Assembly (NCBI GenBank): GCA_004565275.1
Contig: SDOX01000002.1
Location: forward strand, 256,884-320,883
Direction: 5' to 3'
DNA: 64,000 bases
From: Nannochloropsis salina CCMP1776
Taxonomy: Eukaryota > Sar > Eustigmatophyceae > Eustigmatales > Monodopsidaceae
Positions 10,601-62,130 of the stretch are shown piece after piece. The translations under genes and the position numbers were made by a program. Every line of letters starts with the position of its first letter. Within the stretch, counting starts at the first letter, position 1. Under the pieces are notes generated by a model. It was given only the letters and a program-made list of their open reading frames with translations. It was not told the DNA's origin and made no database searches.

Positions 10601-12832
10601 GCCGCATGGATCGGCCTCACGCTTGAGGGCGCCTCCTGGGTAGAATCTGGAGGTGCGGCTTTAATCAGCACCATGAACATCATGGGCCGCGCCGATGTCG
10701 ATCTCGGGAATGGAGGCATGTCTGACATTTTCCCCGAACGATATCTGATGCGATGGTACTGGCCGTTCACAATTCGCCTTTTTACTGTATTCAAGTCCTC
10801 TTCCTCCGACTCTATCGCAAACCGCGGTCCTGCTTTTCCGCCGCCAGGCGACACAGTGGCGTCGCGGCTATTAAATTTGGATGAGAATTTTCGATCTTAC
10901 ATACATATTCCTACCTCGGAAGAGCTTACCTATCTAAAGACTTGGAGTCGGGGCCCTTTCCTTAGTGAACGACCTCTTTTCGAGCACGACTTACTCGGTC
11001 GCCTCCTTTTGCTCAGCAATGTGGCCATAGCTGTTGCGCCTATTTCAAGCCCGCAGCAGTCCATGCAGGTAAGAAATGCCAGAAAACAGCAAATCCTTCG
11101 CCTCTTGGCCCATGTAGGGGCTGCCACTCGCTTGTTGGCCAGCGCGAGAGCCGTCAAGACGAACAGCTCCACTCCGAATCTTATCCTCGCTTTGCGCCCC
11201 TCTCATCTTCTGGCCTATGCGTTTGCCTCTCTTCTCTTCCGTTTCGCCGCGGACGTCATACAAGAAAAGCTGCTCGATGAATTGATTGCATCTCTCTTTT
11301 CTGGGCTGTTTCTTCCTGGCCAAATATGGCACTCAACAAGTACCATTTGCACCCGTGATCCTATCTGTTTGCCTACCACGACGCCCTCGCCCTGCCCTAC
11401 CTCTACAAATCCGACTTTGGCAGCACTGTATGCGGGTGATGCGATTCGCTGCCTGGCCCAAATTCGTTTTGGGCGGGAGGCGGTGGTCCAATGGTTGCGA
11501 TACCTCGTGCAGGAAGGCATGATCAATTTTGGAGGTGAAAAGACATGGCGGCGGGCGATCGATGGGGATAAGGATGGGGAGAGTGATGATCTGAGCGACC
11601 AGGGTAGATGCCAGGCTCGCCTTTTAACATCACTTGCTCACGGGCTATGGCACGCGTCACCCTTTGATTTCCTGCATGGGTCTGCTATCAACAATTGGAA
11701 GATGGGGACACGGGACGAGATAACCCTTAAAGGGCTACAAAAGTTGATGGGCAATATCGTTTTGCTGCGTCCGCCCTCAGTCAATGATCCACACCACCCT
11801 TCTGGAAGTTGTCAGCTGGAAGTTACACACATACAAGCGAAGTTACCATACTTTCGGTGGCAATTTTTACTGGACCTTGACGTCGGGCCATCTTTGACAG
11901 CCGCATTTGCTGCCGATTTGACGTGTACAGAAAATAGAAGAGCGATCGACAAAGCTGAAGTTCTTCTGAGGTTCTTGTGCTTCTTTGTTGATTCTCCGTC
12001 CTGCACGGCAGAGGGTGTCCTAGAGGAAAATATCGGAGCTTGCTCCAGTCAGGATTTGTTCCCGATCATGCTGCCAGTCCTGGAAGCCCTCCTCCGAGCG
12101 AATTGGAGAGAGAAAGGGAAATCTGGTGGTGCAGGCGGCAAACTGTTTCTTCCAGCATTACGCGTAGCCTTTGCGGTGTTACGGTGCCCATTGGCGATCG
12201 ATTCTGAAAGAGCCCCAAATTTGACGCCATTTACTGCAGCCACACCAACGTTGTGGCACTGGGCAATGCGATCAAAACTCGGAGGCAGCGGCGCTTCTGG
12301 CACCGATATTGGCCGTGACGTCGATGTTGGATGCCAGGATGCTTGCTATAGAAACATCGCTCTGCAAAGATTTGCGGGGCTGTGGGGCTGTTTGGTAGGC
12401 CTTTTAGCTGTATTTCCGGAATATATGAGTGACGTAGAAGTTCAAGCACCAAGTTACTCACAAATGTCGCAACTTCACCTGATAACGGAAGAAATGTGGC
12501 GACTCACAGCGGAAAGCCACTCAATATTCGCAGCTGTACGCGCCAAAAATATCTACACGCTTTCAAGGCATGTGTGGGGCGGCCAAGAAGGGCATGGGAA
12601 AATTTCTGAGGGCAATTCTTTGTTAAAGTTCACCTGTGGAGATAAAATTAGGACCAGAACACGGGAGGAAACTAAAATCTGCGAGCAATTGCGAGAGTTT
12701 TTGTTTACTGGGGTGGACGAAAATGGGAAGGACAGTTTTGCTGATGAGGGTTCAGCCGAAAGCAATGTAACCACGTGGAAAAAGGTCAGGCCTTGGATAT
12801 TAGGCTTTAGAAATCGTGACGGAGCTCCATAG
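4661..12832 (+). CDS. Giant intronless protein, 2723 aa: SH3/Tudor-like module plus long helical region
   Basis: A single open frame of 8172 bases. Residues 1-105 are Ser/Pro-rich and disordered. Residues about 141-198 form a compact basic beta-type module (YQVGEYVEVRARLLPGEHKF... then VRYALGGNEKAVDGNFI) that looks like the Agenet/Tudor/SH3-like modules of chromatin proteins. A Cys cluster (C216, C219, C226, C228) follows and may bind zinc. Residues about 230-900 are Arg/Gly/Ser/Glu-rich with long acidic runs. From about 930 to the end the protein is rich in Leu/Ala helices, with no catalytic motif I recognise. The layout, a disordered N-terminus and a very long helical C-terminus, recalls Mms22/MMS22L-type repair scaffolds, but I could not confirm that from conserved residues. 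Nuclear location is inferred from the basic tracts. I regard the product as of unknown function. Confidence 0.8.
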   Translation: MEDDQISANVSQSSSSGVARQPTPHPPSPPAAGGSEMGQHGSEARTIPQKSTTSITMESTSSSTPLYEAPILPQPTESRLQPALSHLSLPIPALPLPSSDIKPALSIDPAREAYLRRYLGRDEYPVSLQTRIEAFLGRHLYPRYQVGEYVEVRARLLPGEHKFGGLGHVVAVHTDHYYDVRYALGGNEKAVDGNFIVSRAKDDSAHRGHRRKTWRCGGCGAFAHECRCERNGRRRQSSLRRPLSSKAAGPGGWEKEKSAGAGQRERQRVRREGPLGRRWQMEGDGETAHIRRSSVALPLSSWASGHSSSSSLSLSDATESPVDRGRSSRAAPTEPGHAPPSQRRIGQSFPSPSLAPPCRDPPARRRHRPWARDARIRPGVGGEAGASESSGSSSSTEASYAARVARREKERSIALREEEEEEAAAMAARVQAAYQAQQTSAVAGTAREMVAKGPRAGTSTAMEVEEEEEEGEKERGEEEEEEEEEGAFIREEGAWAAEAMPEEVGEILSSLGLRKCARSTLPTRMPTLLQEADVALEEYKARLEGLQREVEAGLDPVRRGGHRDVREIEAVCQACAEGLERLHRVMVRFTRHTDDVLNWCLKRMRGREAEAWEGRVDAFIASHAGVDRACKTFMKRTKEELLEVEVGGRVVWEDVWEEETEEEEEKGEGGDGRWRPEGRGGEWGCGQGRIEGEPGRGRKADRLQGSRRVMGDKRGGQRRKNGRGRRLGGFGPGSEREDAAGREGPEEPGRGGSRKKRRRRDAKPTRRGGDVTGKEGTADDFEESSTEALAPSPTRRGCGDERKATPKVQAQREAGRQRQRRKRGRKERARNQDAWSPSSESGEGEDEWEGGSEDGWWTSDSEGNRRDAGRGHGQWAMTDMEASKAAEGMGEDIEVALSRQGHCAWGSVSVPTVVAWVLDEAVMGWEANMEGLEESERGVVSVFDTLRLRVHGSWLNEPRPLLTELVIPRLRRHFEELTGGWTRGQGGREDGREGEGPSLLTLRTGLRAISAHLRDYGGRYSTGERKTFGRVLFRHTYQMDRDFCPGGLLGEETKGTSLAACRRQEPQGCMSATLYWYLLDWSSVLVQHAAKALSASPRTSEREDNELQLEVASILTPARELLLFVLCQLVTLHLRTPSTLALQLDVSPAGIFRPLLNSTPFSDSPSPSLCSLWLQIYNHANIIALAQTKLACTRGGTTSNTRPLGFWSWLLHILRGRPHLNHYISTAPALRESLIRHDLEEHVRVAGRSNNELPPGNMTNGSKPVEGRKPRKAKEEEWSETPLQQDLGTIEGMWRLVFESVRLELLAEKIDGMSGRQRTSEGGEREHFSCWALVEYMIAASDNLNLLSQHRQVLDGGLRSDMDVTGRHRYLALLVRRLRTLLRVWQPDGDLVARLWLSLLQTSATRLKDASPPNPTLSALPLVKTLVRTCCRQAAVADGTPGTLPDTTPLWGRDWSIPRSLLWDLADPQYCALPSYLVLPPPAFLRDLAFGDAVRRLVSRGSDELLLLASCLLERHMSMLKDAGARRDFLVSLLPRLETMTSISPSTGNRERYASSSRSLTLAEIAAGAKDRGDGLGGIRADDMGNIAQNEAKRGQLLGLHNLALALLVLVDKGDAEQKVLLNFWRRLKHFTSSCSARGGGGVQDAEASLALSVQFLALIGPSTEENIDFLHYESLLDSLWQWFGVLAKMTTTAPRPMASFTTSNININNFTGIRDVAGGNQRYSPVVLWSLLQGLAFAVQLSCTFPFPPSHVAKLLGTVEGLLTQYRELDDASLGLLLRIYRCVCPLRKVTLLRDVSAIPLFEKVPLFASLVKGARNLTFDSGTLLVSTSCNRGGGNGREEQELFASQMSAPSIDLLQALGRLTKECWEVGGGNDNAMDPSPVPSTGPYLMSTSRRVYKHLHSLSALQALAAAHALTHAKGLKAPDFPLLRASLESGTATYCDRQTKFLRFLAPCYYNAYLAYDLPSFPSLEGREYPVLAAWIGLTLEGASWVESGGAALISTMNIMGRADVDLGNGGMSDIFPERYLMRWYWPFTIRLFTVFKSSSSDSIANRGPAFPPPGDTVASRLLNLDENFRSYIHIPTSEELTYLKTWSRGPFLSERPLFEHDLLGRLLLLSNVAIAVAPISSPQQSMQVRNARKQQILRLLAHVGAATRLLASARAVKTNSSTPNLILALRPSHLLAYAFASLLFRFAADVIQEKLLDELIASLFSGLFLPGQIWHSTSTICTRDPICLPTTTPSPCPTSTNPTLAALYAGDAIRCLAQIRFGREAVVQWLRYLVQEGMINFGGEKTWRRAIDGDKDGESDDLSDQGRCQARLLTSLAHGLWHASPFDFLHGSAINNWKMGTRDEITLKGLQKLMGNIVLLRPPSVNDPHHPSGSCQLEVTHIQAKLPYFRWQFLLDLDVGPSLTAAFAADLTCTENRRAIDKAEVLLRFLCFFVDSPSCTAEGVLEENIGACSSQDLFPIMLPVLEALLRANWREKGKSGGAGGKLFLPALRVAFAVLRCPLAIDSERAPNLTPFTAATPTLWHWAMRSKLGGSGASGTDIGRDVDVGCQDACYRNIALQRFAGLWGCLVGLLAVFPEYMSDVEVQAPSYSQMSQLHLITEEMWRLTAESHSIFAAVRAKNIYTLSRHVWGGQEGHGKISEGNSLLKFTCGDKIRTRTREETKICEQLREFLFTGVDENGKDSFADEGSAESNVTTWKKVRPWILGFRNRDGAP
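6050..6116 (+). repeat. GAG/GGA purine tract encoding a poly-Glu run
   Basis: Imperfect trinucleotide repeat, almost pure purine on the plus strand, encoding an acidic run inside the giant gene. A second GAG-rich tract lies at about 6627-6670. The extreme strand asymmetry is what produces the long meaningless reading frames on other frames here. Confidence 0.85.
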
Positions 12833-40321: not shown

Positions 40322-43075
40322 TCATGCTGTTTCCTTTCTTGGCACCTTTCTCTTTGTCCGCTTTGCCGTCTTGGAGACCTCGCGTTTCTTCTGCGGTGTT
40401 TCTCCCAGGGATGGCTCAATTTCCTCTTCACAATCTACGGCCGTCAGCAGATCGGCCTTGAGGGAACGACAGCGCTGCAGGATTTGGTCCAACGACTCAG
40501 GCAAGACCCTTTCGTTTCCCTCCTCTCCCTCTGATTCTTCGTCTCCCGGTGCTGCCTTGAGTCCCCTCGCACCGACTTTGCCGCCCGCGTCCTGCTTGTC
40601 AGCCCGATTTTCACGGTGCTCCTGCGTCCGCTCCTCTTCCCTTCCCGCCGAGCTCGGAAACAAGGACGAAAAGGGAATGGCTCCTTCTTGTTCTTGGTGT
40701 TCGGAAACGGGCATGGGAAGGCCGTGGTCCCTGTGGGATCGTCGGAGTTGGTCCCGCAGCCTTTCGAAGGCCGCCAAGGCCGACGAAGCGGACGAGGCGG
40801 CGAAAGCGGGAGGCCCGATGGGAGGGACATGGCTGGTCACAACTGTGGAGGGAGACACTGCAGTAGTGCCATCGGACATCGCGGGGAACACGGTGTGTGT
40901 GCTACGAGTCGCCCTTTGAACTTGCTGGGTAGTGCGCATCAGTACCTCTGTCAATCGGTCCTCCCTGATGTCCGTAGGCCCCTGGCTCGGCTTCGTCGGG
41001 ATGATTTTCTGTGACATTTCTCCGAGCCCGTTATGCGGGTGTAAATGAAAAGTAGAGGCATGTGCTGACGTTGGTAGTGCCTCTTCCTCTTGTCTTTGTG
41101 GCGCCTTGGACGCCATCGGCTGTGGACTTCGTCCTGGCTGCCCCCTCGGTCGCGATTTGCCTTGTTCTCCATTTTGGCCGGCCTGCTCCTCTTGCTGCCT
41201 TAATACCGCCTGCAGCTCCTCGAGTTGGTGGACGGTCCTCGACATCTCTGCCCGCGTTCCTGCCATCTCCTCTTCGTAGGCCACGATTCGAGCCGCTGCT
41301 TCGGACACTGCCATTTCAAGCTCCCGCGCCTTCTCTTGCTCGGCCTTCACGATCCTCCGTGCCTCCAAGCTCTCTTTCTCGAACGCAAGGCAGCGGGCTT
41401 GAGCCTTGCTCAGCGCCTCCCGACTTTTCTTTCTTCTTTCCTTGTCCAGGGATTCCTTCCTGGACTTGGTCCGCTGCTGCTCTTCCTCCTGCTGCGCTTT
41501 CATCCGCTCCAAGTCGTCCATCACGCCGTTCATAGCCTGTAGGTAATCTCGGCACTTGAACCTCAGGTCAGCGGCCTCCGCCTGCCTAGCTTTTAGCTCT
41601 TCTTGCTGACTCCTCAGTGCTCGCTCCGCAGCACGGGCGACGCCTTCTGCCGCCTTGGCCTGGTCGTGGCCCCCGGCCCCACCGCGACGCTTCCCGCCTC
41701 CTTCTTCTGCCGGTCTCCGCGACTCCAACATGTCCTCTAGCTTAAGGGCTTTGCTCCGGTATGTCTCCGCTTGAGACTTGGCGTCTGTGACCTCCTGTCG
41801 CCGCCGCATCTCCTTCCCACGCCAGGCGTCTCGCTCACTCTCCAACCGCGCGGTGGCCCTCTGGGCCGCTTCCTGAGCCTCCCGATCCACCTCTTTCGAT
41901 TTGCGCAAGACTTCCTCCAGGTTCTGACACCGGGCCTCCAGCTCCATGATTGTACGAGTCGCCGCCGGGGTTTGGAAGGATTCTCGCTCCCGTAGCGACG
42001 ATAACTCCCCCTCCATCGCCTTGGCTCGCGCCTCTGCTGCCGTCGCCCTGGCCTTCCATGCAGTCACTTCGCCGCCACCGGCGTCTTGGGACGACAAAGA
42101 TAATGTCAGTCTTCGCACCTCCTCTTGCACCTGGGTCTTCTCGCGTTCCGACCTGTGCAAGGACGTTTCGAGCGTCTCGATCGTCGCCAGGCACTCCCGG
42201 AGCTGCTCCATCCCGTCGTCCAGCCTCGCTCTCATCCCATCCACCAGCTCCGCCGCCTCTCTGGCCTTTGCTTCTGCTCTGGCCTTCGTACGGGCCACGG
42301 ATCCGGCCTCCTCCAATGGTCCTTGGGGACTTCCTGGGGAGCCGTTGCCAACCTCGCCCGTCCGCCGCACCTCCATCTCCAGTACTTTCACTTTCTCTTG
42401 CAAGACAAGCACCCTTTTCTGTGCCTCTTCCAGGGCTTCTTCGGTCAGCAACTTACTCTTTCGACATCGTTTCAGATCTACTCGTGCCTGTCTAGCTTCC
42501 TGGAGAAGATCATCGCTTTGACCCTGGACGCGCGTGAGGATGTCGTCCTTGGCCCGCAATGACTCGTGGACCATCTCGAGTTCCTGTGCCTGGAGCCCCA
42601 GCACTTGGTGCAAACGGGAGATCTCTTCGTGCAGGCCCTTTTTGCTTGCAACACTTGTCACATTACTGGCGGCACTGATGACGCTTGCGGCGCTTCGACC
42701 GAATGCGGTGGATGAGACGTGGGGGGGGGAAGACATGAGGGGTGGGTGCACAGGTAACTGCGCTTGATGAGCGTGAGCGGACCTCGCAGCCGACGTCGCC
42801 GAGGCCAAAAATCCTTCAAACAGTCGTGGATGTGTTGCTTGTGTTGTACTGTAATATGGAGAGGAGGATGAAGTGCGACGTGGAAGGGCTTTGGTCTTGA
42901 AGGCGTCCAACTTGCCGTCGTTGTCGCCATTGCCTTCCGCCGCAAGCTCGCGGGACGGCAGTTCTTGCTCGCTTAATCCCTCGTCCTCCGTCTCAATGTC
43001 TACTTCCTCTTCTTCTTCAACCTCGATGTCGTCCTCTGAGGATAGTAGCCGTCGCGGGGGCCTCAAACTTCGCAT
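40322..43075 (-). CDS. Long coiled-coil protein, family unknown
   Basis: 917 residues in one exon. The N-terminus has an acidic patch (DDIEVEEEEEVDIETEDE). From about residue 150 to 640 the chain is almost continuously heptad-like, rich in Glu, Lys, Arg, Ala and Leu (for example KCRNLEEVLRKSKE-type stretches and LEDMLESRR), with a few Gly/Ser breaks. The C-terminal 270 residues are mixed and end in a basic tail (KTAKRTKRKVPRKE). No motor, CH or GRIP domain is visible. Such proteins usually serve as centrosomal, cytoskeletal or Golgi tethers, but nothing here decides between these. I do not recognise an ortholog. Confidence 0.75.
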   Translation of the reverse strand: MRSLRPPRRLLSSEDDIEVEEEEEVDIETEDEGLSEQELPSRELAAEGNGDNDGKLDAFKTKALPRRTSSSSPYYSTTQATHPRLFEGFLASATSAARSAHAHQAQLPVHPPLMSSPPHVSSTAFGRSAASVISAASNVTSVASKKGLHEEISRLHQVLGLQAQELEMVHESLRAKDDILTRVQGQSDDLLQEARQARVDLKRCRKSKLLTEEALEEAQKRVLVLQEKVKVLEMEVRRTGEVGNGSPGSPQGPLEEAGSVARTKARAEAKAREAAELVDGMRARLDDGMEQLRECLATIETLETSLHRSEREKTQVQEEVRRLTLSLSSQDAGGGEVTAWKARATAAEARAKAMEGELSSLRERESFQTPAATRTIMELEARCQNLEEVLRKSKEVDREAQEAAQRATARLESERDAWRGKEMRRRQEVTDAKSQAETYRSKALKLEDMLESRRPAEEGGGKRRGGAGGHDQAKAAEGVARAAERALRSQQEELKARQAEAADLRFKCRDYLQAMNGVMDDLERMKAQQEEEQQRTKSRKESLDKERRKKSREALSKAQARCLAFEKESLEARRIVKAEQEKARELEMAVSEAAARIVAYEEEMAGTRAEMSRTVHQLEELQAVLRQQEEQAGQNGEQGKSRPRGQPGRSPQPMASKAPQRQEEEALPTSAHASTFHLHPHNGLGEMSQKIIPTKPSQGPTDIREDRLTEVLMRTTQQVQRATRSTHTVFPAMSDGTTAVSPSTVVTSHVPPIGPPAFAASSASSALAAFERLRDQLRRSHRDHGLPMPVSEHQEQEGAIPFSSLFPSSAGREEERTQEHRENRADKQDAGGKVGARGLKAAPGDEESEGEEGNERVLPESLDQILQRCRSLKADLLTAVDCEEEIEPSLGETPQKKREVSKTAKRTKRKVPRKETA

Positions 43076-50886: not shown

Positions 50887-53130
50887 ATGCCCTCTATGAT
50901 CGGTAAGGAAGAGATAAATGGAGGTGTCTGCGCCGCGACTGCCAACGCATTGCTGGAATGGATAGGCAGCTTCCACTCCCTCCTTTCCGCTGGCGACCTT
51001 CCCACAAAACTGGAGCACTTGACAGACGGCGTCGCCCTGGCAGAAGTTCTTCACGACGTAGCGCCGGCTCGTTTTCCGCGCAATGTATTGTCTCGTCCTG
51101 TATCGTCCGCCTCCTCGTCTTCCCCCCCCACGCCCACGACCAACTGGGCCTTGGCGCTCACGAACATGAAAAAGCTGACACGGCTCTTGGAAGCACACTA
51201 CGAGGAAGACCTTGGGTTGTGCCTGCGGGGATCCGAAGAGATGGAGAGGGTGCATGCTGAGAAAAGCAGCGCTGGATTTGATGGGTTCATAAGTTATTTT
51301 TCTACTTTGGATTTGGTCGGCATAGTCCGAGAGAAACGGGAAAGGGAGATCGTGAAAATCTGGGAGCTTGCCATTTTTGCCGCTGTGCGAGCCCCTACCC
51401 CTGAAAAAGCTCGCATCTACGTGGAGAAAATCATGGCATTGTCTCCTGGTGCCCAGGCTGAATTGAAAGACTGCGTCGAACGAACACTGTCCAGAGCCGG
51501 TCCTTCCTCACGACCCTCTCCTTCCTCCTCCTCCTCTTCCTCGCCATCCTCCCTCTCCAATGCCATCACCGCAGGACTGACAACTGAGGCACATCCTCAA
51601 GAGGAGGGAGGGAATGTATGCCTGAAGGAGAAGCTACAACAGTTGCAAACCGCCCTGGCTTTGAGGGAGGAGGAGGTGGGAAGGGTCCGAGCGAGCGAGG
51701 GAGAGATGAAGGATGAGATGGAGGGGATGAAAAACCGGTGGAAGGAAGCGGTGAACAGGGCAGATAAGCTGCAGAAAGCCTGCGAGGAGTGGCGCGTGCG
51801 AGTGGAAGAAAAGGAGGAGGAAGGAGAGCACTGGCGTCGGGAGGCGGGCCGGTGGGAGGCCAAAGTCAAGGCGGAGAGGGAGAGGGCTCGAAAGGCGGAG
51901 GAGGTGGAAAGAAAGCTAGCAGATGAGGTGGACGTGCTGCGAGAAAGGGCAGGGACTGTGCAAGATTTGGAGGGGTCGTTGGAAAAGTACAAGGGGCGGC
52001 TTGAGCAGATGGCGGGGCTGAAGCAGCTCTGTCGAGACCTGGAAGAGCGGAATGCCGCGTATCTGGACCAGATTTTGCAGGCGGAGGAGGGAACAAAAGC
52101 GACGGTGTCCAGCTTGAAAAGGGCACTGGAGCAGTACAAGGAGAAGGTGGTGGTGTTGGAGAGGGAGAAATTTGTGGCCACGGAGAGGAAAGAGGTGGTG
52201 GAGGGAGAGAATGACCGGCTGGAGGCAGAGCTCGAGGCAGCGAGGGAGGGACGGCGGACGGTCACCGAGGAGTATCAGGAGTGTAAACGACTGCTTTCGA
52301 GGCTGCAGCAGCAAGCAGACCGGCCAGAGGGGGGAGAGAGAGACGGTGGAATCAGAAGGGAGAAGGATCGGGTGGCAGGCCTCTTCGAGGACGCGGCGAG
52401 TGTGCAGGAGCGGCTGCAAAGGCTGGAGCGGGAGAATAAACAGCTGCGGAAGGACATGGGAGGAAGGAATCAGCAACCCTATGGGGAGGGGCGGTCAACC
52501 ATTAGTTTGGAAGAGGACTTAGCCCTTCTCCGCTCCGAAATGCAGGACGTGGTACGCATCAAAGGAGAGAGAGAAAAGGAGGCCATCGCGGCAACGAAGC
52601 GGGCGGCGGACTTGGAGGCGCAAGTCCTTATCTTGAAAGGACAATGCGAGGAGATGGAAGAGGAGGTGGGAAAGGCGAAGGAGGAAGGGGTCCTGGCTGT
52701 GGCCGCACAGGAATCAGCATTGGCCCGCGTGCGCGCTCTTGTCGCCGAGACCCAGGATTTGGAGGGGCAGATCGCGACCTTGAAAGGCGAGAAGGACCGA
52801 CTGGAAGGGTACACGCGGAAGACCCTCCAAGCTGTCCAAGAGAAGTACGTTCAGACGCTTGGTAGCTTGAAAAGGAGTAACGCCGAGTACAAGGGGAAAT
52901 GTCAGGCATTGGAAGCACGCCTGCAGGAGGACAGGGTAGCACAGAAAAGGGAGGAGAAGCTCTTGATGTCGGCCGTCTACGGTCTAGGTATGGAAATGCT
53001 ACAGCCGGAATTCAACAGGGTGGCGCTTGCAGGGAAAATTCGTGGAAGTGGAACCGAAAGCAATGGCCCGTGTGGTGCACAGAATGAGTTGAAGACGATG
53101 GGAGGGAATAAGGGAGGGGAAAGGAGATGA
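50887..53130 (+). CDS. HOOK-family dynein adaptor
   Basis: 747 residues in one exon. Residues about 17-180 form a HOOK (calponin-like) domain: ALLEWIGSFHSL, LTDGVALAEVLHDVAPARF, NWALALTNMKKLTRLLEAHY, and a second helical part GIVREKREREIVKIWELAIFAA followed by the KARIYVEKIMALSPGAQ block. A Ser-rich linker (about 200-220) leads into a long coiled coil (about 235-715) rich in Glu/Lys/Arg with heptads. HOOK proteins bind dynein light intermediate chain through this domain and link dynein-dynactin to cargo. The cargo-binding C-terminus is short and not recognisable here. The two initial Mets (1 and 4) are equivalent starts. Confidence 0.87.
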   Translation: MPSMIGKEEINGGVCAATANALLEWIGSFHSLLSAGDLPTKLEHLTDGVALAEVLHDVAPARFPRNVLSRPVSSASSSSPPTPTTNWALALTNMKKLTRLLEAHYEEDLGLCLRGSEEMERVHAEKSSAGFDGFISYFSTLDLVGIVREKREREIVKIWELAIFAAVRAPTPEKARIYVEKIMALSPGAQAELKDCVERTLSRAGPSSRPSPSSSSSSSPSSLSNAITAGLTTEAHPQEEGGNVCLKEKLQQLQTALALREEEVGRVRASEGEMKDEMEGMKNRWKEAVNRADKLQKACEEWRVRVEEKEEEGEHWRREAGRWEAKVKAERERARKAEEVERKLADEVDVLRERAGTVQDLEGSLEKYKGRLEQMAGLKQLCRDLEERNAAYLDQILQAEEGTKATVSSLKRALEQYKEKVVVLEREKFVATERKEVVEGENDRLEAELEAAREGRRTVTEEYQECKRLLSRLQQQADRPEGGERDGGIRREKDRVAGLFEDAASVQERLQRLERENKQLRKDMGGRNQQPYGEGRSTISLEEDLALLRSEMQDVVRIKGEREKEAIAATKRAADLEAQVLILKGQCEEMEEEVGKAKEEGVLAVAAQESALARVRALVAETQDLEGQIATLKGEKDRLEGYTRKTLQAVQEKYVQTLGSLKRSNAEYKGKCQALEARLQEDRVAQKREEKLLMSAVYGLGMEMLQPEFNRVALAGKIRGSGTESNGPCGAQNELKTMGGNKGGERR

Positions 53131-53518: not shown

Positions 53519-56500
53519 TCAAGGACCTCGCGCCGGGCGATACAAGATATCCGCGCTCAGGACTGCGAGCTTCCTTACCAGCTGGTGTGATCCTAAGCGT
53601 TCAGAGGCTTTCCTCCTCAAACACGCCTGCAAAATTTGTTTGATTCCAATAAGACGCTCTTCCCATCCCGAGTCTGCCGGTAGCCGCGACTTGAAATTCT
53701 CGAATATGCGCCACCCGGAGAATTCGGCTATCGAAAAGTCAGCCACTAGCCGACGAAGCTCCTTCGGATCCCTTGCTGCGCCCCACGCTTTGCGTCCCAC
53801 CATCAACTCGAGGAGCAGAACGCCCATGCTCCATAAGTCACCCGATGGATGCAACGCAAGGGGTGGCAGCGTCTTGGATTGGGATCGACTTCTTGCTTCA
53901 GCCGTGGCCATTGACGACGACAAAATATTCAATGTCTCAGGAGCAGTGAAGGCAATCCTGTCCGCGCTCCCGCATCTATTCGGCACACCTTTGAATAACC
54001 CACGATGGGCAATACCTTGGTCCGTCAGCTTGACCACCTGCAGCCTCGGCATCGGGAAAGAGACTAGGATGTTTGCTGGACGTAATGCACCATGAACCAG
54101 CCCCTGAGCGTGCAAGTAGTCCAATCCGGCCGCGATCTTGCACGCGGTCAGTAATCGGTCCTCCAGCGTAACTAGCGCGTGTGGCTTCAGTAGGACGTGA
54201 TCAAGATCTACAAGCGCTTCTTCAAAAGCGAAACCCACCGCCGACAAGGCCTTTCCCTCCTCGATGCGGGCCGCCACTACCGGCACGAGGTTCTCATGAT
54301 TTAGCCGCCGCAACTTTTTCAATTCCTCTCGAAAGGCTAAGCGGGCTTCGGGCACAGGAGACACAGCCACGTTCTTCAAGACAACCTTTCGTCCGTCTGA
54401 GAGTTTGACCAAATTTAGATGAGGAAGTGACAGGGGTTTCAGCAAGGTGGTGTCATTTCCCGAGATAAGAAAGCGAGGTTTGCGACCTGCGCCGTCTTTT
54501 CTGTCGCTGTAGTCATCGCGATGGCATTTCTTGCGCCGCTTTTTTTGCACGCCTTCTACCTTCTGGTCCAAGTCCAGGCCGTGATGCTTCTTTTTCGTCC
54601 GGGACTTCTCTCCTTTCGACTTTCGTTCTCTCTCCTTACTACCTTCCACGCTTTGCCCCTTACCCTGTGATCCACATTTGTTGCTTGCAGGCACATGCTT
54701 TCGCTTCCCTGGAATGTTGTCCGCGTAAGCCATTTCTCCGCCGTCAACGATGGCTGTCAGATATTCGGCCTGACTACCCGTTTTGAAATCCACCATCACT
54801 TCCTCCCCCTCTTGAGAGATCACTGCCTCGGGGGCTTCGCAGCTCGTCACTGGTGATCCTTGCGACCAACAGTACCATTTGGTATCCTTCCCTGCGAACT
54901 GCATTACGTACGACTGTGTCACCATTCGCCACTTGCCGCAGTGTTCGCACTGTATGAAATCCGTCACTTTTAACTTGGCCCTGGACGGTATTTCTACCGC
55001 TTTGCTCTTCCCTATCCTTGCCTCGTGCGCAAGCTCTTGGGAAACATACTGAGTCCAGACACGCCCGAGCCGCTCTTCAATTTTCTCGAGGGCCGGGTTC
55101 GGGCGACGGAAGGATTGCTTGGAATGCTGGGTTTCGTAGTGGCGGGGATCTAAATGCACGACGGCGAGCACACCCATCCCCTCCCGCGGATTTGTAATTC
55201 CGATCTCCTGTCGCACGTAGGACGCGATCAGAACGTTGGTGCAAAAAAACATGGCCCCACCCAAGCCCAATCGCTTCGCCTCGGATGAGAAACCTACGGA
55301 GGCTATGACGGGTTTTCGGGTTGGCTCGTCTTGGAGCAGGTTGTAACGCCGTACGTGAAGCAAGGTCTCCAGGAGGTCTGGCGTCGGAACGTCTTTTCCT
55401 ACCAAGGTGATTCTCATGCGGTGTTGAAGGAAGGCTACTTGGAGGTACGCTCGAAGGGAGTAGTCAATAGGCACGTCATGAGCAAGGAGGGCACCGCGGG
55501 TGTTGAGATGTTTTTTCCCCGTCCGCGTCACCAGCTGGAGATCGCCTTCCGCCCTGTCCACTCGCAGCTCACGCCAAACGCCACCGCCCTCCGGATCCCC
55601 TCGTTCCATGCCTTGGATGTAGACCACGGTGCCCGACTCTCCCGCCGCCCAGGCGTTGAGCAACAGAGACCAATGCCGCTCTGGAGTGACGAAGCTGTAG
55701 CGAGCCATCAGCTCGGAGGCCTCTCGGAAGGCCTGGCGGGACGTGTACCGCGGGTCAGGCTCCATGGTGTCCGGGCTCAATGTAACCACACGACACACGG
55801 GCGCCGCGTTCTCGTCCCGAAGGTGGGGCTCATTTGACAGGATGCCCATGACCAAGGACTTGTGCCTCAGGCTTTTGCTCAGCACAACGGCCGTGGAGCC
55901 GATCCGAAGGCTTCCCTGCTTGAAACCGCAGCCGTATCGGCCCACCCTTTCCACGTTTCCCTGGTCTCGAGCATACGTTTTGCCCAATCGAAACATCCCC
56001 TTCATCTCGTCGGGGCCCATCCCTACGCCGTTGTCCTTGATTTCGAGGACCATGACCCCGCCTTCCCCTCCGTCTTCCTCGCGGACGTCGATATGCAAGC
56101 GCGTGCTCCCTGCGTCCAGGGAATTATGCAGCAACTCTGCCAGCGCTCCAAACAACCAGACATGATTTTGGCTGAGGGTGCTCAAATAAGAATTGTCGAC
56201 CGCCATAAATGTGGAGGCGGGCATCGAGGAATCCACCGGGCGTGGAGGAGATGACGAGGGATGACTTACGTAAGAAGGGGCAACAGGCGGAGGAATCCGT
56301 GCACGAGTCCCAACCGCCGAGAGTAGCGAAAGAGCTTCCCCAGAAGTCCTGAGTGTCTCGTCGCTTTCCAAATCTGCACCCTCGAAATGTTGTCGTACCG
56401 GTACACGCTTCTGCATTCCGGTGGTGTTATCATCTGTCGCAGCACCAGCGTGGTGGAGCGTATCGAGAGAGCCACCTTTCTCTATAATAGAGTTTACATT

Positions 56501-57184
56501 CCCAGAGGAGACAGGTGAAGGTATGGGGGAAGATGGCGGCGAGAATGTGAATGAACTCAAGAGGATGGGTGGGATCAAAAGCTTTAGCTTATCTGTTGCT
56601 TCGAAAGCTGAGGAATCCGAAGGTGGGCAAAGCCATACACAGAGATTCCGGCTCTGAGGCAGGCGTATCTCGGCATATTTTGGCAAGCTCTTTCCTTGAA
56701 GCCCGTGGCTTAAATATTTACAAAAGCCGACGTAGTGCTGCTTCTCTGATTCGGAGGCAGCTTCGGGTACACCTACGTCGATTGCTGGTAGCGTCTTCGT
56801 ATCCACCCCCTCACGCTTGTAATGCGATATTACAAACGCCGTGTCGAGTCTGGATGTTCGTAGATAGTATAAATGATGGCTTAACGGGTTTGAAGGACCG
56901 ATGATCGTCCAGACTGATTTACAAGCAATACTACTAGGGACGTATAGACAGAGATAACCTGCCGAAGGCAGATGGGATTCGGCAGACCGAGTGTCAGCTC
57001 TTGCCACACATTGAAAACCACTTACATAGATGTATGACGCCCAGTATCCAAATAAAGTGGGCAGATATATTCTTGCTGTAGGTTGTTTTTCGTAAAAAGG
57101 CGGAAGGTCTTCTTGTCCGTGGTAACGTCCCCCATTTCCTCCTCCACTCTTACGCGAGTAGGTGGTGGTAGCGCGCCCCGCCAC
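53519..57184 (-). CDS. MORC-type GHKL ATPase with CW zinc finger and C-terminal pseudokinase
   Basis: 1221 residues in one frame. Residues 340-470 are a GHKL ATPase of MORC type: FGALAELLHNSLDAGSTR (N-box Glu and Asn), DNGVGM, GRYGCGFKQGS. An S5-like half follows (about 500-690: GAMFFCTNVLIASYVRQEIG, GVLAVVHLD), then a CW zinc finger at 741-786 (CEHCGKWR...WYCWS...SCEAPE). A Lys-rich linker leads to a kinase fold at about 917-1215. That fold keeps the ATP-site lysine (VVLKNV), a helix-C Glu, an APE motif and DLWSMGVLLLELM, but HRD is HGA (VHGALRPANIL) and DFG is DQG, so it is probably a pseudokinase. MORC proteins compact chromatin, and CW fingers read methylated H3K4. Residues about 125-200 faintly resemble a SPOC domain. 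A GTAAGT donor after residue 53 suggests an intron may remove residues 54-123. Confidence 0.85.
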   Translation of the reverse strand: MAGRATTTYSRKSGGGNGGRYHGQEDLPPFYEKQPTARIYLPTLFGYWASYIYVSGFQCVARADTRSAESHLPSAGYLCLYVPSSIACKSVWTIIGPSNPLSHHLYYLRTSRLDTAFVISHYKREGVDTKTLPAIDVGVPEAASESEKQHYVGFCKYLSHGLQGKSLPKYAEIRLPQSRNLCVWLCPPSDSSAFEATDKLKLLIPPILLSSFTFSPPSSPIPSPVSSGNVNSIIEKGGSLDTLHHAGAATDDNTTGMQKRVPVRQHFEGADLESDETLRTSGEALSLLSAVGTRARIPPPVAPSYVSHPSSSPPRPVDSSMPASTFMAVDNSYLSTLSQNHVWLFGALAELLHNSLDAGSTRLHIDVREEDGGEGGVMVLEIKDNGVGMGPDEMKGMFRLGKTYARDQGNVERVGRYGCGFKQGSLRIGSTAVVLSKSLRHKSLVMGILSNEPHLRDENAAPVCRVVTLSPDTMEPDPRYTSRQAFREASELMARYSFVTPERHWSLLLNAWAAGESGTVVYIQGMERGDPEGGGVWRELRVDRAEGDLQLVTRTGKKHLNTRGALLAHDVPIDYSLRAYLQVAFLQHRMRITLVGKDVPTPDLLETLLHVRRYNLLQDEPTRKPVIASVGFSSEAKRLGLGGAMFFCTNVLIASYVRQEIGITNPREGMGVLAVVHLDPRHYETQHSKQSFRRPNPALEKIEERLGRVWTQYVSQELAHEARIGKSKAVEIPSRAKLKVTDFIQCEHCGKWRMVTQSYVMQFAGKDTKWYCWSQGSPVTSCEAPEAVISQEGEEVMVDFKTGSQAEYLTAIVDGGEMAYADNIPGKRKHVPASNKCGSQGKGQSVEGSKERERKSKGEKSRTKKKHHGLDLDQKVEGVQKKRRKKCHRDDYSDRKDGAGRKPRFLISGNDTTLLKPLSLPHLNLVKLSDGRKVVLKNVAVSPVPEARLAFREELKKLRRLNHENLVPVVAARIEEGKALSAVGFAFEEALVDLDHVLLKPHALVTLEDRLLTACKIAAGLDYLHAQGLVHGALRPANILVSFPMPRLQVVKLTDQGIAHRGLFKGVPNRCGSADRIAFTAPETLNILSSSMATAEARSRSQSKTLPPLALHPSGDLWSMGVLLLELMVGRKAWGAARDPKELRRLVADFSIAEFSGWRIFENFKSRLPADSGWEERLIGIKQILQACLRRKASERLGSHQLVRKLAVLSADILYRPARGP

Positions 57185-57590: not shown

Positions 57591-58652
57591 TCATACCATA
57601 TGAGCAGGCGAGCGCCGAGAACCACATCGACGCCCTCCATACATTGTAGTATTGTTCTTCCCTTCGATATCCACCACAGGCGAAGGTGTTGTAGGACTCG
57701 CGATCGCTGAGTCCTGTGACCTTTTTACACCTACGTGAGATGGTTGCTCTTTTTTTGTCGTCGGAGGTTTGAGAATGCGAGAGGTTCGATGCTCATCTTT
57801 GGGCAAAAAATCTCTGCGTTCGTGCATGATAACGACACCTGTCTTGGCTAATAGCTCTGCAAAGGAGTCGCGCGGATTGTAGCAGATGAGCATGCATGTG
57901 CTTATGAGAACAATAAATTGTAGTATCAACAGAAAGTTGAGGTACTTTTGCAAAGCTCCCAGGCGCTTACTTAGAAAGCGGGCCACACCCAACCGACAGC
58001 GGTGATATGGACAGGCATCTAGATTTCCCGCTGTGCAGAGGTCATCCCGAGGACAACATCCATCTGTATAGGGCACACTGGTACCGCCGTCGCCGTCAGT
58101 ACCACACGAGGTGCAGGTACCAACATCCATGGACAAAGGGCAGCTCTGACGCGTCCAGTCTGCAAACCAATTAAAAGATCCCGCCCCTCCGTCGTGTGCC
58201 CTAACCGCAGCTTTTCTGGTTTTGAAGTAAAGACGATTGAAGTAAGGGACGAGCAAATTTTGCTCTGAGCGAGCGTAAACTGCGTCTGGATTATCCAAGA
58301 GAAGAGGGACCTGGGTGTGAAGAGTCCGCATAGCCAGAAATGCCGTTGTAAAAGCAAACAGCAGTCCCAGCAGTAGAAGCTGGTACAATGACAGCAATCT
58401 CCTTCCTCCGCACGGCCCGACGCGGACGATTTGACGTTTTACTCCAAAGCATCCAAGACAGGATAAAAAGACAAGCCCAAGGCCAACCAACATCGTCCAC
58501 ATGATCCATCCTTGGGTAAGACTGGTCAATGTCACCGCAGCAAGTGATGTTGCGTAGTAAAGATATGCTGCTAGACCTCCCAAGACTAAGCCTGCGATGC
58601 AAAAGCAGGTGTTGCTCGTAGAGACAACAAACTTGATGTTGTCGTTCAGCAT
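57591..58652 (-). CDS. Tetraspanin-like four-helix membrane protein
   Basis: 353 residues from the ATG at 58652, chosen because it sits just before the first membrane helix, as in tetraspanins; the frame is open for 114 more codons upstream that look non-coding. There are four hydrophobic segments: three near the N-terminus (NTCFCIAGLVLGGLAAYLYY, WIMWTMLVGLGLVFLSCLGC followed by the FGVKRQ loop, LYQLLLLGLLFAFTTAFLAM) and one after the large loop (LNFLLILQFIVLISTCMLIC). The extracellular loop is Cys-rich with one CC pair (DGCCPRDDLC), a tetraspanin-like layout, although the CCG motif is changed. A 90-residue cytosolic tail follows. The function is unknown; tetraspanins organise membrane microdomains. 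Confidence 0.7.
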   Translation of the reverse strand: MLNDNIKFVVSTSNTCFCIAGLVLGGLAAYLYYATSLAAVTLTSLTQGWIMWTMLVGLGLVFLSCLGCFGVKRQIVRVGPCGGRRLLSLYQLLLLGLLFAFTTAFLAMRTLHTQVPLLLDNPDAVYARSEQNLLVPYFNRLYFKTRKAAVRAHDGGAGSFNWFADWTRQSCPLSMDVGTCTSCGTDGDGGTSVPYTDGCCPRDDLCTAGNLDACPYHRCRLGVARFLSKRLGALQKYLNFLLILQFIVLISTCMLICYNPRDSFAELLAKTGVVIMHERRDFLPKDEHRTSRILKPPTTKKEQPSHVGVKRSQDSAIASPTTPSPVVDIEGKNNTTMYGGRRCGSRRSPAHMV

Positions 58653-59177
58653 GTTCACGTCAGGTCTATCGGACGCTTGCTGCGCGTGCACGTAAGCGCC
58701 AGCCTGCGGTACCGTTCTCAATAAAAGTTTGGCAATCCTGCTGTGTGTGGCTGATACTTTGATTTCAAGAGGAAGTGGTGAGGGCGAGGAATAGCATAGT
58801 GTATTTTTGGCCCATGTGGCAGCGTACTTTTCAAAAGTGAAAAAAGGCACGGTGGTGCTCGTCCCGCCCCGGTCATAGGCAGCACGTTTAAAGGAAGCGA
58901 CGTGGGGTCGGTAAAATTGGCATGGATAGCATTCATGATAGAGTCCATGGGAATGAAATGACCAATCGAGGGCTCTATGCGGTTTAAGTGTCATTTTTGG
59001 GGGTTAGGTGGTGCACAGGAGGAGCGTCAACCGGCTCAGCGAGAAATTTGATTGCTGCTGTCCACTCCCGTTAGGAACCCGCGAAGCACTTTATCAACTA
59101 CCTCCTGCCTCTTCTTTCATGTTATTCGGATATAAAACGCTTACAGTCATGACGGGAGTGCAAGGCATATTCTAGAA
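58653..59177. other. Intergenic, divergent promoter region
   Basis: About 525 bases. The tetraspanin frame remains open through most of it on the minus strand, but the translation is unlike any protein and has no signal sequence. It may be 5' UTR. No other gene seen. Confidence 0.4.
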
Positions 59178-60458
59178 GTGGGGAAGGCATTGGACATGGA
59201 CCTCTTGGCGTTGCTGCCCCCTTTTCCGAAGTCTGGGAAGCACCACGTACTGCTTGTTGTGGTTTCAGCAGTTGCTGCCTCTGCGACGACTGCAGCTATC
59301 TTGCTTATGTTTTCCCAGCGTCGATCAAAATCTAAACGTACCTTAGAGAATAAAGGTGGCAATCGGGAAAGTGGTTATGCGGCATTGATCGGTAACACGC
59401 CGCTCATCGAATTGACTAGTCTATCGCGCGCGACGGAATGCCGTGTCTTGGCAAAGGTGGAATATCTGAATCCCGGTGGTACCAGCAAAGACCGCGTGGC
59501 ACTGCGAATGATTCAGGAGGCAGAAAAGGCCGGTTTATTACATCCTGGTAGTACGGTGATAGAAGGGACCTCAGGAAGTACGGGTATTGCTTTAGCCTCC
59601 TTGTGCCGTGCCCGAGGGTATCGATGCTTGATAGTCATGCCAGACGACCAGGCGGCGGAGAAAGCCCATTTATTGAAACAGTTTGGTGCTGAGGTTGAAA
59701 TTGTCAAGCCTGCAAGCATTGCCAACCCTAACCATTACTGTAATCGTGCACGGGCACGGGCAGAAGAGTTAGGTGACGAGGCAGTTTACATGGATCAGTT
59801 CGAGACCATGGCAAACTTTCGAGCCCATTATGAGGGAACAGGGCCAGAAATGTGGGAGCAGGTAATGGCTGGATACGGTGCCCGTCCAGACGCTTTCGTC
59901 ATGTCGGCAGGGACGGGTGGCACGCTGGCGGGGGTGTCTCGGGCCTGGAAGGAGCGTGAGGAGAAGGTACAAGTGTTTCTGGTGGACCCCCCGGGCTCCT
60001 CCCTCTACCACAAGGTCAAACACGGCGTCTGCTACTCGACGGCGCAGCGGGAGCGAGGAGTGCGGCGCCACCGCTACGATTCTCTTGCCGAAGGGATTGG
60101 GCTGGACAGGCTGACGGCAAACTTTAGAAAAGCGCGGATCGACGAGGCCTTTCATGTCCCGGATCAGGAGGCAGTTGACATGGCCCATTTCCTCCTCCAG
60201 GCAGAGGGCATGTTCGTGGGGAGCTCGACAGCGATGAATCTGGTGGGCTGTGTGCGTGCAGCTCGGGTGCTGGGGCCGGGTCACACAGTGGTCACGGTCC
60301 TGTGCGATTCAGGACAGCGACACTTGACTCGATTTTGGAACCGGAGAGTAGTAGAAGGCGCTGGGTTGATATGGCCGGAGACACCGCCCGTGAATCTGAA
60401 CTTCTTGCAGAGAAATGGACAAGGAGACAAGGAGGATTTGAGAGAAGGAAGGCATTGA
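59178..60458 (+). CDS. Membrane-anchored cysteine-synthase-like PLP enzyme
   Basis: 426 residues in one exon. An N-terminal hydrophobic helix (about 22-45, HVLLVVVSAVAASATTAAILL) followed by basic residues suggests a membrane anchor, probably mitochondrial. The catalytic part is a fold-type II PLP enzyme: GNTPLIEL, PLP lysine K104 in NPGGTSKDRVAL, the substrate loop EGTSGSTGI at about 129-137, and the phosphate-binding GTGGTLAG. KHGVCYSTAQRE and LAEGIGLDRLTANF match the fungal cysteine synthase 2/YGR012W group (from memory), which is distinct from plastid OAS-TL. It may use O-acetylserine or a related substrate with sulfide; the exact reaction in that group is not settled. An alternative start at Met7 would not change the anchor. 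Confidence 0.88.
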   Translation: MGKALDMDLLALLPPFPKSGKHHVLLVVVSAVAASATTAAILLMFSQRRSKSKRTLENKGGNRESGYAALIGNTPLIELTSLSRATECRVLAKVEYLNPGGTSKDRVALRMIQEAEKAGLLHPGSTVIEGTSGSTGIALASLCRARGYRCLIVMPDDQAAEKAHLLKQFGAEVEIVKPASIANPNHYCNRARARAEELGDEAVYMDQFETMANFRAHYEGTGPEMWEQVMAGYGARPDAFVMSAGTGGTLAGVSRAWKEREEKVQVFLVDPPGSSLYHKVKHGVCYSTAQRERGVRRHRYDSLAEGIGLDRLTANFRKARIDEAFHVPDQEAVDMAHFLLQAEGMFVGSSTAMNLVGCVRAARVLGPGHTVVTVLCDSGQRHLTRFWNRRVVEGAGLIWPETPPVNLNFLQRNGQGDKEDLREGRH

Positions 60459-60654: not shown

Positions 60655-62130
60655 TCACGCCCACTCCTCCTTGACGACAATCTCTTTTTTCACGACCGCG
60701 GCCCGGGCACCGCCCTTCCCCTTGTTGATGCTCTTCTGCCTGACCGTATTCTGGGTCACCGTCTCTTCCTCCTTCTTGACGTGTGCCAGTCCCACCCGCG
60801 CGGCCGCAGCCTCCATTGCCGCTGCTTCGGCTTTGACCAGCTCTTCGCGCATTTTTTGCAGCTTTCCCAAGGGGCATGGGCCGTCGGGCGCGAGCTGCGT
60901 GCGGCCTTTGCAGCAAGACTCGCACTTCTTTCCGTGCAGCACCAAGAGAACATGCAGGGCATACTTTATAGCGTCAGGCACGCGGTTGTTCAGGTGCTTG
61001 TAGGCATCCTCCCTGGAGGCGGCTCCCGGCACCCACCCTAGCTTCTTAGCAATATGCCAGACGTGCGTGTCCACGGCGAAGTCGTCGTGTCCTATCGTGA
61101 AGAGCAGGACACAGGCGATGGTCTTGGGCCCGACGCCCTTGAACTTGCTGAGGTACTCCTTGATCCCGGCCGTCGGAAGCGCTCGGAGAAACTCCAGACT
61201 TGGCTCCCCTTCGGGGCACTTCTCGGGGTGCTCTTCCAGCACGGTCTCTAAAATGGCGCGGATTCGGCCGACTTTGATATCAGACAACCCCGCAAATTTG
61301 ATCGTCTCCTCTACTGCGCCGGGTGCGGCAGCCAACACTTGCTTGTAGGTCGGGTAACGTGCCTTCAAATTTTCGAAAGCACGCTTACTCAAAGCGTCGG
61401 TGGTGTTTTGACTCAGGATCGTGCGGACAAGAGAATCGAGGACAGAGCGTGCCCGCTTTTCTAAAAGCGTGCCTTGGCCGCTGCAATTTTCCTCCAACAC
61501 ATCGCGCTCTGGTTCGCCGTGGAGCTGTGCCAGCAGGTCGCGCACGTAAAGTGCTTCAAATGGAGTCGGACGTCGTTGTTGCGGGTATGGACTGATCTCA
61601 CTGGCTGTGATTTTGATGGAGGTGCCTGGTCCTGTCCATTTATCGAGTAAGGCCTTGATTTTGAGAACCTCGTCCGCGTCGTGGATCAACTTATCGGGAC
61701 ATGCCGAGGGCTTCCGCTTCGATTCCGCCTCCAATTTTATCTTTTTAGAAGACAGAGACTCAACACGAGAAGAACCCAAAGCCTTGTCTCGCGAACGCCG
61801 TGGCATGTAGCCGTCGACTGCACCCGTGACCTTGATGTCTTCGTCCGTCTCCTCCTTCTTCACAACCCTTACTTTCTTGCCTTCTTCCCCTGAAGCTTTG
61901 GGCGTCGCTTTTCCGCCATCGAAGTATCTCTCTTTTTCCACAGCAGTCTCTACTTTCACGTGTGTCGTTGATTTCTCAGTGTGGACGCTTCTTGTCGAAT
62001 TTCCCTTGAGTGCCGGCTGCCCTTCAGTCGCAGCGTCAGCAAGAGGCGGCCCCCCTCTTTCATTTCTTAAGCGGGGGCTTCGCTTCGTCTCCCGACCAGG
62101 CTCTAGCTTCATGGTATTCAATCCTGCCAT
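60655..62130 (-). CDS. Endonuclease III-type HhH-GPD DNA glycosylase
   Basis: 491 residues in one exon. The first 140 residues are a basic, Lys/Glu-rich disordered region. The glycosylase core spans about 190-425: LDSLVRTILSQNTTD, the helix-hairpin-helix FKGVGPKTIACVLLF with the Schiff-base Lys336, and FAVDTHVWHIAKKLGW with catalytic Asp354. The cluster region reads C403, C406, C407 and C419 instead of the classic CX6CX2CX5C of Nth, so the 4Fe-4S cluster may be altered or lost. It resembles a plant HhH-GPD family (At3g47830 type, from memory). It would remove oxidised pyrimidines in base-excision repair. The C-terminal 70 residues are helical then basic. Convergent with the cysteine-synthase-like gene. 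Confidence 0.9.
   Translation of the reverse strand: MAGLNTMKLEPGRETKRSPRLRNERGGPPLADAATEGQPALKGNSTRSVHTEKSTTHVKVETAVEKERYFDGGKATPKASGEEGKKVRVVKKEETDEDIKVTGAVDGYMPRRSRDKALGSSRVESLSSKKIKLEAESKRKPSACPDKLIHDADEVLKIKALLDKWTGPGTSIKITASEISPYPQQRRPTPFEALYVRDLLAQLHGEPERDVLEENCSGQGTLLEKRARSVLDSLVRTILSQNTTDALSKRAFENLKARYPTYKQVLAAAPGAVEETIKFAGLSDIKVGRIRAILETVLEEHPEKCPEGEPSLEFLRALPTAGIKEYLSKFKGVGPKTIACVLLFTIGHDDFAVDTHVWHIAKKLGWVPGAASREDAYKHLNNRVPDAIKYALHVLLVLHGKKCESCCKGRTQLAPDGPCPLGKLQKMREELVKAEAAAMEAAAARVGLAHVKKEEETVTQNTVRQKSINKGKGGARAAVVKKEIVVKEEWA

Follow-up and report, generated by a model that had tools for sequence, protein, structure and literature searches.

A divergent MORC ATPase with a CW zinc finger and a predicted C-terminal pseudokinase in microalgae around Nannochloropsis

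Introduction

Work on MORC ATPases treats them as DNA clamps driven by ATP, with dimerization and regulation influenced by their C-terminal parts, and in animal MORCs coiled coils lie at the C-terminal end. Animal MORC3 and MORC4 have the order GHKL–S5–CW–coiled coil. Human MORC2 is described as having a threonine (Thr496) at the floor position of its CW finger and as not binding H3K4me3 (PMC5811534), and as having several coiled coils, one of them inserted into the ATPase module, besides a Tudor–chromodomain region (PMC5811534, PMC12216690). Outside the family, RNase L (ankyrin repeats–pseudokinase–RNase) is described as a dimer-working enzyme with a pseudokinase in its chain (PMC4718504).

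The protein considered here is encoded in a 64,000-nucleotide stretch of the Nannochloropsis salina CCMP1776 genome (the window). It shares with MORC3 and MORC4 the order of ATPase, S5 and CW within one alignment, as well as the catalytic Glu and Asn, the glycine motifs and the S5 lysine. By contrast with them, the algal protein adds a conserved N-terminal domain and a C-terminal kinase fold, and has exchanged the CW cage-floor Trp for Phe or Ser and the S5-motif Arg for Val or Ile; a Pfam scan of it matched no coiled-coil family. With MORC2 it has in common a CW finger that lacks the floor Trp, but the Pfam scan matched nothing corresponding to the coiled-coil or Tudor–chromodomain parts of MORC2, and a predicted kinase fold takes up the C-terminal end instead. 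The likeness to RNase L, which differs in its canonical nucleotide binding, its RNase effector and the order of its parts, is drawn here as an analogy.

Results

Four Pfam profiles, all over their curated cut-offs, match the protein in the order HATPase_c_3, Morc6_S5, zf-CW, Pkinase (Table 1), bearing out the original prediction that a MORC ATPase, a CW finger and a kinase fold reside in one protein. Six further database proteins (P0001–P0006, of which P0005 is labelled Nannochloropsis oceanica) align throughout and share this order; the homologue searches were scored over 7998 and 7996 candidates, chosen for having the most 5-residue words in common with the query, and counts out of seven below refer to the window protein plus these six relatives. 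The reverse-strand frame at 53519–57184 is open throughout its 1221 codons and, as had been proposed, is uninterrupted, with no stop or frame change between the CW finger and the kinase region in the window. It is thus extremely unlikely that two neighboring genes have been read as one, with a MORC transcript that stops short of the kinase region: although the intervening linker is poorly conserved, the six other proteins, which come from several sources and include an NCBI-named N. oceanica protein of 1147 amino acids, are also continuous there as deposited.

Table 1 Features of the MORC–pseudokinase gene in the window (residues numbered in the 1221-codon frame)
Feature	Coordinates	Strand	Residues	Basis or remark
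Predicted exon 1, start ATG 57135	57026..57135	-		36 codons + 2 bases; MGDVTTDKKTFRLFTKNNLQQEYICPLYLDTGRHTS(I)
Predicted intron, 176 bases, GTAAGT...CAG	56850..57025	-		Splice removes stop after exon 1 and joins homologous frame
Predicted exon 2, all named domains; stop codon 53519-53521	53519..56849	-		Open frame
Conserved N-terminal domain without known relative	56540..56848	-	113-215	Cross-species identity
GHKL ATPase core, HATPase_c_3	55868..56152	-	345-439	Pfam E 1.1e-16
MORC S5/transducer, Morc6_S5	55046..55462	-	575-713	Pfam E 2.5e-13
CW zinc finger, zf-CW	54827..54955	-	744-786	Pfam E 2.7e-8
Variable Lys/Arg-rich linker	54470..54814	-	791-905	Identity and composition
Predicted pseudokinase domain	53549..54469	-	906-1212	Pfam Pkinase E 1.9e-19 (residues 926-1204)
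HGA replacing HRD	54086..54094	-	1031-1033	Catalytic Asp missing 7/7
DQG replacing DFG	54014..54022	-	1055-1057	Asp and Gly 7/7

The 5' end of the gene requires correction. A start at GTG 57184, as first assumed, is very probably wrong, since the first 112 residues of that frame would consist of upstream sequence, exon 1 in the wrong phase and the predicted intron; the two-exon model starting at ATG 57135 is the most likely alternative. Read in its own phase, exon 1 encodes a sequence similar to the start of P0005 (MVETTKKAFRLLTVNGDQQEYICPLHLETGRHTSI), and the predicted coding sequence comprises 1146 amino acids, compared with 1147 in P0005. The named domains are unaffected by this correction. 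We weighed another GTAAGT, at 56269, as an additional donor but kept it as coding because the frame stays open across it; a small intron there is still conceivable, as the homologues align poorly in that linker, which follows the N-terminal domain (29–32% identity in P0003, P0005 and P0006).

The N-terminal domain itself is 67–77% identical in P0003, P0005 and P0006 and 99% identical in P0001; P0002 and P0004, as deposited, lack it. It had no Pfam match over cut-off and no PDB sequence match at E values up to 10; a sub-threshold Pfam match to DUF1885 (E 0.27) was dismissed.

The ATPase core has the catalytic Glu/Asn pair and glycine motifs of the GHKL (Bergerat) fold, with E350, N354, D384, G386, G388, G415 and G418 invariant in all seven proteins. 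C-terminal to it lies an S5 domain with the expected basic finger residue: K689, within QHSKQ, is kept throughout and aligns with HNKQ/YNKQ of MORC3/4. Iyer et al. (2008, PMC2292703) give the S5-fold motif of MORCs as GhXhhpXXRhl; the stretch GAMFFCTNVLI at residue 643 broadly fits it, but the motif Arg is Val or Ile in 7/7. When P0005, P0006 and a diatom protein (P0007, below) were scanned with Pfam, P0006 gave no Morc6_S5 match. In a PDB sequence search, the best nine chains were all MORC2, MORC3 or MORC4, headed by MORC4 (E 1.4e-27, residues 331–787, through the CW finger) and including MORC3 at E 4.4e-27; the MORC2 matches span residues 332–614 only. Since MORCs still rank first by similarity despite the missing motif Arg, we file the protein as a putative divergent MORC. 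Morc6_S5 has a single match in this genome (six-frame search, best candidates only). HATPase_c_3 has seven other matches there.

The CW finger had been predicted to read histones. The finger itself is present, as judged from the Pfam match and from the four cysteines (746, 749, 772 and 782), which, like the wall Trp 752, are invariant in 7/7. Its reading function is doubtful, because the Trp that would floor the methyl-lysine cage is replaced in every protein, by Phe in six (here Phe 743, directly before the finger) and by Ser in one.

The C-terminal domain was modeled with moderate confidence (pLDDT 68.1, pTM 0.74; 68 of 320 residues below pLDDT 50) as a bilobal fold of the protein kinase superfamily that matches solved kinases in the PDB, in line with the kinase-like fold first proposed; the resemblance to RAF/KSR is not a family assignment. 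A full-length model, built from eight sequences and the frame from residue 113, reached a pLDDT of 31.5 and was not used for domain contacts. Pseudokinases are defined as lacking one or more of the VAIK Lys, the HRD Asp and the DFG Asp (PMC4718504). Here the HRD Asp is missing from all seven proteins (HGA in six, HGS in one), whereas the VAIK Lys937 and the DFG Asp1055 are invariant, as are the helix-C Glu954 and Asn1038. The HGA and DQG motifs are exactly as originally read, and the middle residue of the latter varies across the seven (Q, Q, Y, H, H, H, F).

Such a domain might yet be an active kinase of unorthodox catalysis, directed at the MORC itself or at chromatin. The bilobal fold and the retained Lys, Glu, Asn and DFG Asp, together with the APE motif and helix-F Asp, are compatible with this, some predicted pseudokinases are described as active (PMC4718504), and phosphorylation in the C-terminal part of MORC2 is described as controlling the compaction that MORC2 carries out (PMC12216690). 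However, the loss of the HRD Asp is accompanied in 7/7 by replacement of the catalytic-loop Lys by Arg, and the Gly-rich loop is lost, making activity unlikely. A role as a nucleotide sensor, binding ATP without phosphate transfer and reporting nucleotide state to the clamp, is compatible with the four invariant residues Lys937, Glu954, Asn1038 and Asp1055: one paper describes about 40% of pseudokinases as binding nucleotide on available data, and the HRD Asp as not absolutely required for binding (PMC4718504). Yet these residues are weak evidence, because 136 of 307 kinase-domain columns (44%) are invariant anyway, and the Gly-rich loop has given way to an invariant P-H-L (residues 921–923, 7/7) that sets the domain apart from four other aligned kinases. 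We regard nucleotide sensing as possible but not probable.

Conservation of the kinase domain also bears on whether it has any role. Identity to the window protein in P0002–P0006 is 73–80% for the ATPase, 57–65% for the kinase domain and 29–39% for the linkers, and we count the kinase domain as kept because it so exceeds the linkers. The adjoining Lys/Arg-rich linker (K + R, 26% over its main 95-residue stretch) is 93% identical in P0001 but 31–39% in P0002–P0006, with 21 of 115 columns invariant (18%). Searched against this genome, the kinase domain found six matches besides itself, at 31–37% identity over short stretches; a protein search, which scored 7875 candidates, returned three kinases at 29–30% identity, of which two carry names of bacterial MAG proteins. 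Neither the genome nor that one protein search yielded a close paralogue. This last result, and the lower identity of the kinase domain compared with the ATPase, would suit a recent chance fusion or a decaying remnant without a role, a reading that is nonetheless very unlikely given that the domain is present in 7/7, with more than twice the share of invariant columns of the linker beside it and with APE, helix-F Asp and subdomain XI Arg all invariant. No relative is encoded in the 101 viral or 16 bacterial/archaeal contig stretches that matched search patterns (two short patterns each), an observation that counts against the protein as a whole having come from viruses or bacteria.

Beyond these seven proteins, the nearest kinase-less relative found, and the sole one from another ochrophyte, is A0A7S4MLF4 (P0007) of the diatom Odontella aurita (E 2.7e-43; the alignment takes in 40% of the query, at 33% identity). 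Its ATPase and CW finger score over cut-off and its S5 domain under it (E 3e-4); it differs in having a bromodomain between S5 and CW and no kinase match in the Pfam scan. Conservation in related algae, raised at the outset as a condition, thus holds for six further proteins, all within one group around Nannochloropsis, and did not extend to the diatom. We take the protein to be, on present alignments, a real and conserved MORC variant so far seen in microalgae around Nannochloropsis. Among the matches listed in searches of the open-access literature, we found no description of a MORC–kinase fusion, and none linking MORC with Nannochloropsis; MORC plus a C-terminal pseudokinase is, accordingly, a domain combination that we have not found described.

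Discussion

These observations are best explained by a MORC-type chromatin ATPase in which a predicted pseudokinase stands where animal MORCs have their C-terminal coiled coils. By extension from MORC2/3/4, and with the catalytic residues checked being kept, ATP binding would close the GHKL/S5 module as a dimeric DNA clamp, while the CW finger may pack on the ATPase, contact chromatin, or both. The linker, whose basicity is evident and whose binding to DNA is presumed, would flexibly tether the pseudokinase, for which no phosphate transfer is predicted because its catalytic Asp is gone. Most likely the pseudokinase would offer a second surface for dimerization, or a platform for docking, and thereby influence the place and the ease of clamp closure; similar scaffolding of homodimers is proposed for the RNase L pseudokinase, and C-terminal coiled coils do the like in animal MORCs. 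We consider scaffolding, dimerization and docking, taken jointly, a somewhat probable role, and any single one of them less so. More tentatively, the clamp may be gated by its own pseudokinase, binding of a ligand, partner or phospho-signal controlling ATP-driven closure, with the further, lineage-specific N-terminal domain as a second input.

A natural MORC with a conserved C-terminal pseudokinase makes it possible to ask whether the part at that end mainly dimerizes, recruits or senses. If Morc6_S5 also has a single match in N. oceanica or another transformable relative, no sister gene would hide the effect of a knockout in that alga. The joining of a pseudokinase to a chromatin ATPase is, as a combination, one that we did not find described, and it may represent a new mode of controlling the MORC clamp; if the gated-clamp reading is true, a single polypeptide in these algae would connect signaling directly to the compaction of chromatin.

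Domain architecture and gene model

The frame is open across 1221 codons, in agreement with the single uninterrupted frame of the original prediction, and the MORC ATPase, CW finger and kinase fold claimed for it are each matched above cut-off in a Pfam profile search. Among the best 60 PDB matches listed, the nine top chains by sequence are MORC2, MORC3 and MORC4, and the remaining 51 fall on the kinase part; the best chain, MORC4 (E 1.4e-27), aligns across residues 331-787, so that ATPase, S5 and CW stand in animal MORC order. The full predicted order is an N-terminal domain without a known relative, ATPase, S5, CW, a variable linker and the pseudokinase.

Features in the window (residues counted in the frame)
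Feature	Window	Strand	Residues	Evidence
Frame	53519-57184	-		1221 codons without stop
N-terminal domain	56540-56848	-	113-215	conservation
HATPase_c_3			345-439	Pfam E 1.1e-16, above curated cut-off
Morc6_S5			575-713	Pfam E 2.5e-13, above curated cut-off
zf-CW			744-786	Pfam E 2.7e-8, above curated cut-off
Pkinase			926-1204	Pfam E 1.9e-19, above curated cut-off
HOOK protein	50887-53130	+
Tetraspanin	57591-58994	-
PLP-dependent enzyme (PALP)	59178-60458	+
HhH-GPD DNA glycosylase	60655-62130	-
2723-aa open frame	4661-12832	+		no Pfam match at E 1e-5
917-aa open frame	40322-43075	-		no Pfam match at E 1e-5

The start first proposed, GTG 57184, is very unlikely on sequence grounds: ATG 57135, in another phase, opens MGDVTTDKKTFRLFTKNNLQQEYICPLYLDTGRHTS..., which resembles the N terminus (MVETTKKAFRLLTVNGDQQEYICPLHLETGRHTSI) of P0005, a relative labelled Nannochloropsis oceanica. 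A predicted intron follows (GTAAGT at 57025 to CAG ending 56850), and the predicted spliced protein (1146 residues) stays in step with P0005 (1147 aa) beyond the junction; with this start and splicing, frame residues 1-112 are therefore probably not part of the protein. The relative P0001 (1223 aa, 96% identity to the query) carries the same unspliced frame, a model that we infer an intron-blind gene finder would yield.

The four annotated neighbours look ordinary. Genome-wide (26.5 Mb, 103 contigs), profiles match Morc6_S5 once, zf-CW three times and HATPase_c_3 eight times; the two further zf-CW matches over cut-off lie in frames of 188 aa (G000:C89:78266-78361) and 363 aa (G000:C99:253883-254023).

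Relatives and conservation

Searching 5.8 billion proteins with the query from Met321 (7998 candidates scored) gave seven matches at E <= 1e-5. Six of them (P0001-P0006) carry the kinase; the seventh, P0007, a MORC-like protein of the diatom Odontella aurita (UniRef A0A7S4MLF4), lacks it. An alignment search returned the same seven and P0008, whose domain list is kinase-type only. Morc6_S5 is missing from the precomputed Pfam lists for P0006 and P0007; in our own scan it fell below cut-off in P0007 (E 3e-4) and gave no match in P0006, despite end-to-end alignment. In P0007 the S5 region and the CW finger are separated by a bromodomain that scores over its cut-off (E 6.4e-5). The viral contigs and bacterial and archaeal species contigs scanned held no confirmed relative.

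Pairwise identity over the MORC part gives three clusters: the window protein with P0001 (98%), P0002-P0005 (86-93%) and P0006 (69-75% to all others). With near-identical P0001 and kinase-less P0007 excluded, P0002-P0006 share 73-80% identity with the window protein in the ATPase, 69-71% in the transducer, 59-75% in CW, 57-65% in the kinase domain and 29-39% in the two linkers (the first in P0003, P0005 and P0006 only). Across all seven sequences (window protein and P0001-P0006), invariant columns number 122/195, 122/215, 26/51 and 136/307 in these domains, respectively, and 21/115 in the linker ahead of the kinase. The predicted pseudokinase is less strictly conserved than the ATPase, but far more so than the linkers.

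The N-terminal domain, which is about 100 residues long and precedes the MORC ATPase, was missing from the original prediction. Its identity to the window protein is 67-77% in P0003, P0005 and P0006 and 99% in P0001, with SLPKYAEIRLPQSRNLCVWLCPP the best-conserved stretch; the linker after it reaches only 29-32% in P0003, P0005 and P0006. P0002 and P0004 start at the ATPase, and the domain is not seen in either. A PDB sequence search at E up to 10 returned nothing for this domain, and no Pfam family matches it over cut-off.

All seven sequences keep the four zinc Cys of CW and its wall Trp, and the floor position is Phe in six and Ser in one. The floor of MORC2 CW is Thr496; that finger does not bind H3K4me3 and packs onto the transducer instead (PMC5811534). 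Histone reading by the predicted CW finger is therefore doubtful.

Novelty and proposed mechanism

Iyer et al. 2008 give Bromo, BAM, CW and MBD-type domains as the partners in MORC fusions; the phrase 'kinase domain' is absent from the main text of that paper (PMC2292703). No description of a MORC-kinase fusion was found among the matches listed from the open-access literature searched. Precomputed domain lists in public databases already contain these domain combinations; the sequences are thus public, and the architecture seems undescribed.

Domain order, retained ATPase residues, the missing catalytic Asp and conservation are observed at the sequence level. By analogy with MORC2/3/4, the protein would form an ATP-dependent dimeric clamp on DNA. 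The C-terminal pseudokinase may serve dimerisation, docking or allosteric gating. These roles would be the most economical for it, because MORC2 and MORC3 are dimerised by coiled coils (PMC8627505) and in RNase L the pseudokinase is believed to provide a scaffold for homodimerisation (PMC4718504). ATP hydrolysis and DNA binding of MORC2 are regulated by its C-terminal part, which has phosphorylation sites (PMC12216690); the C-terminal end of a MORC can thus be regulatory.
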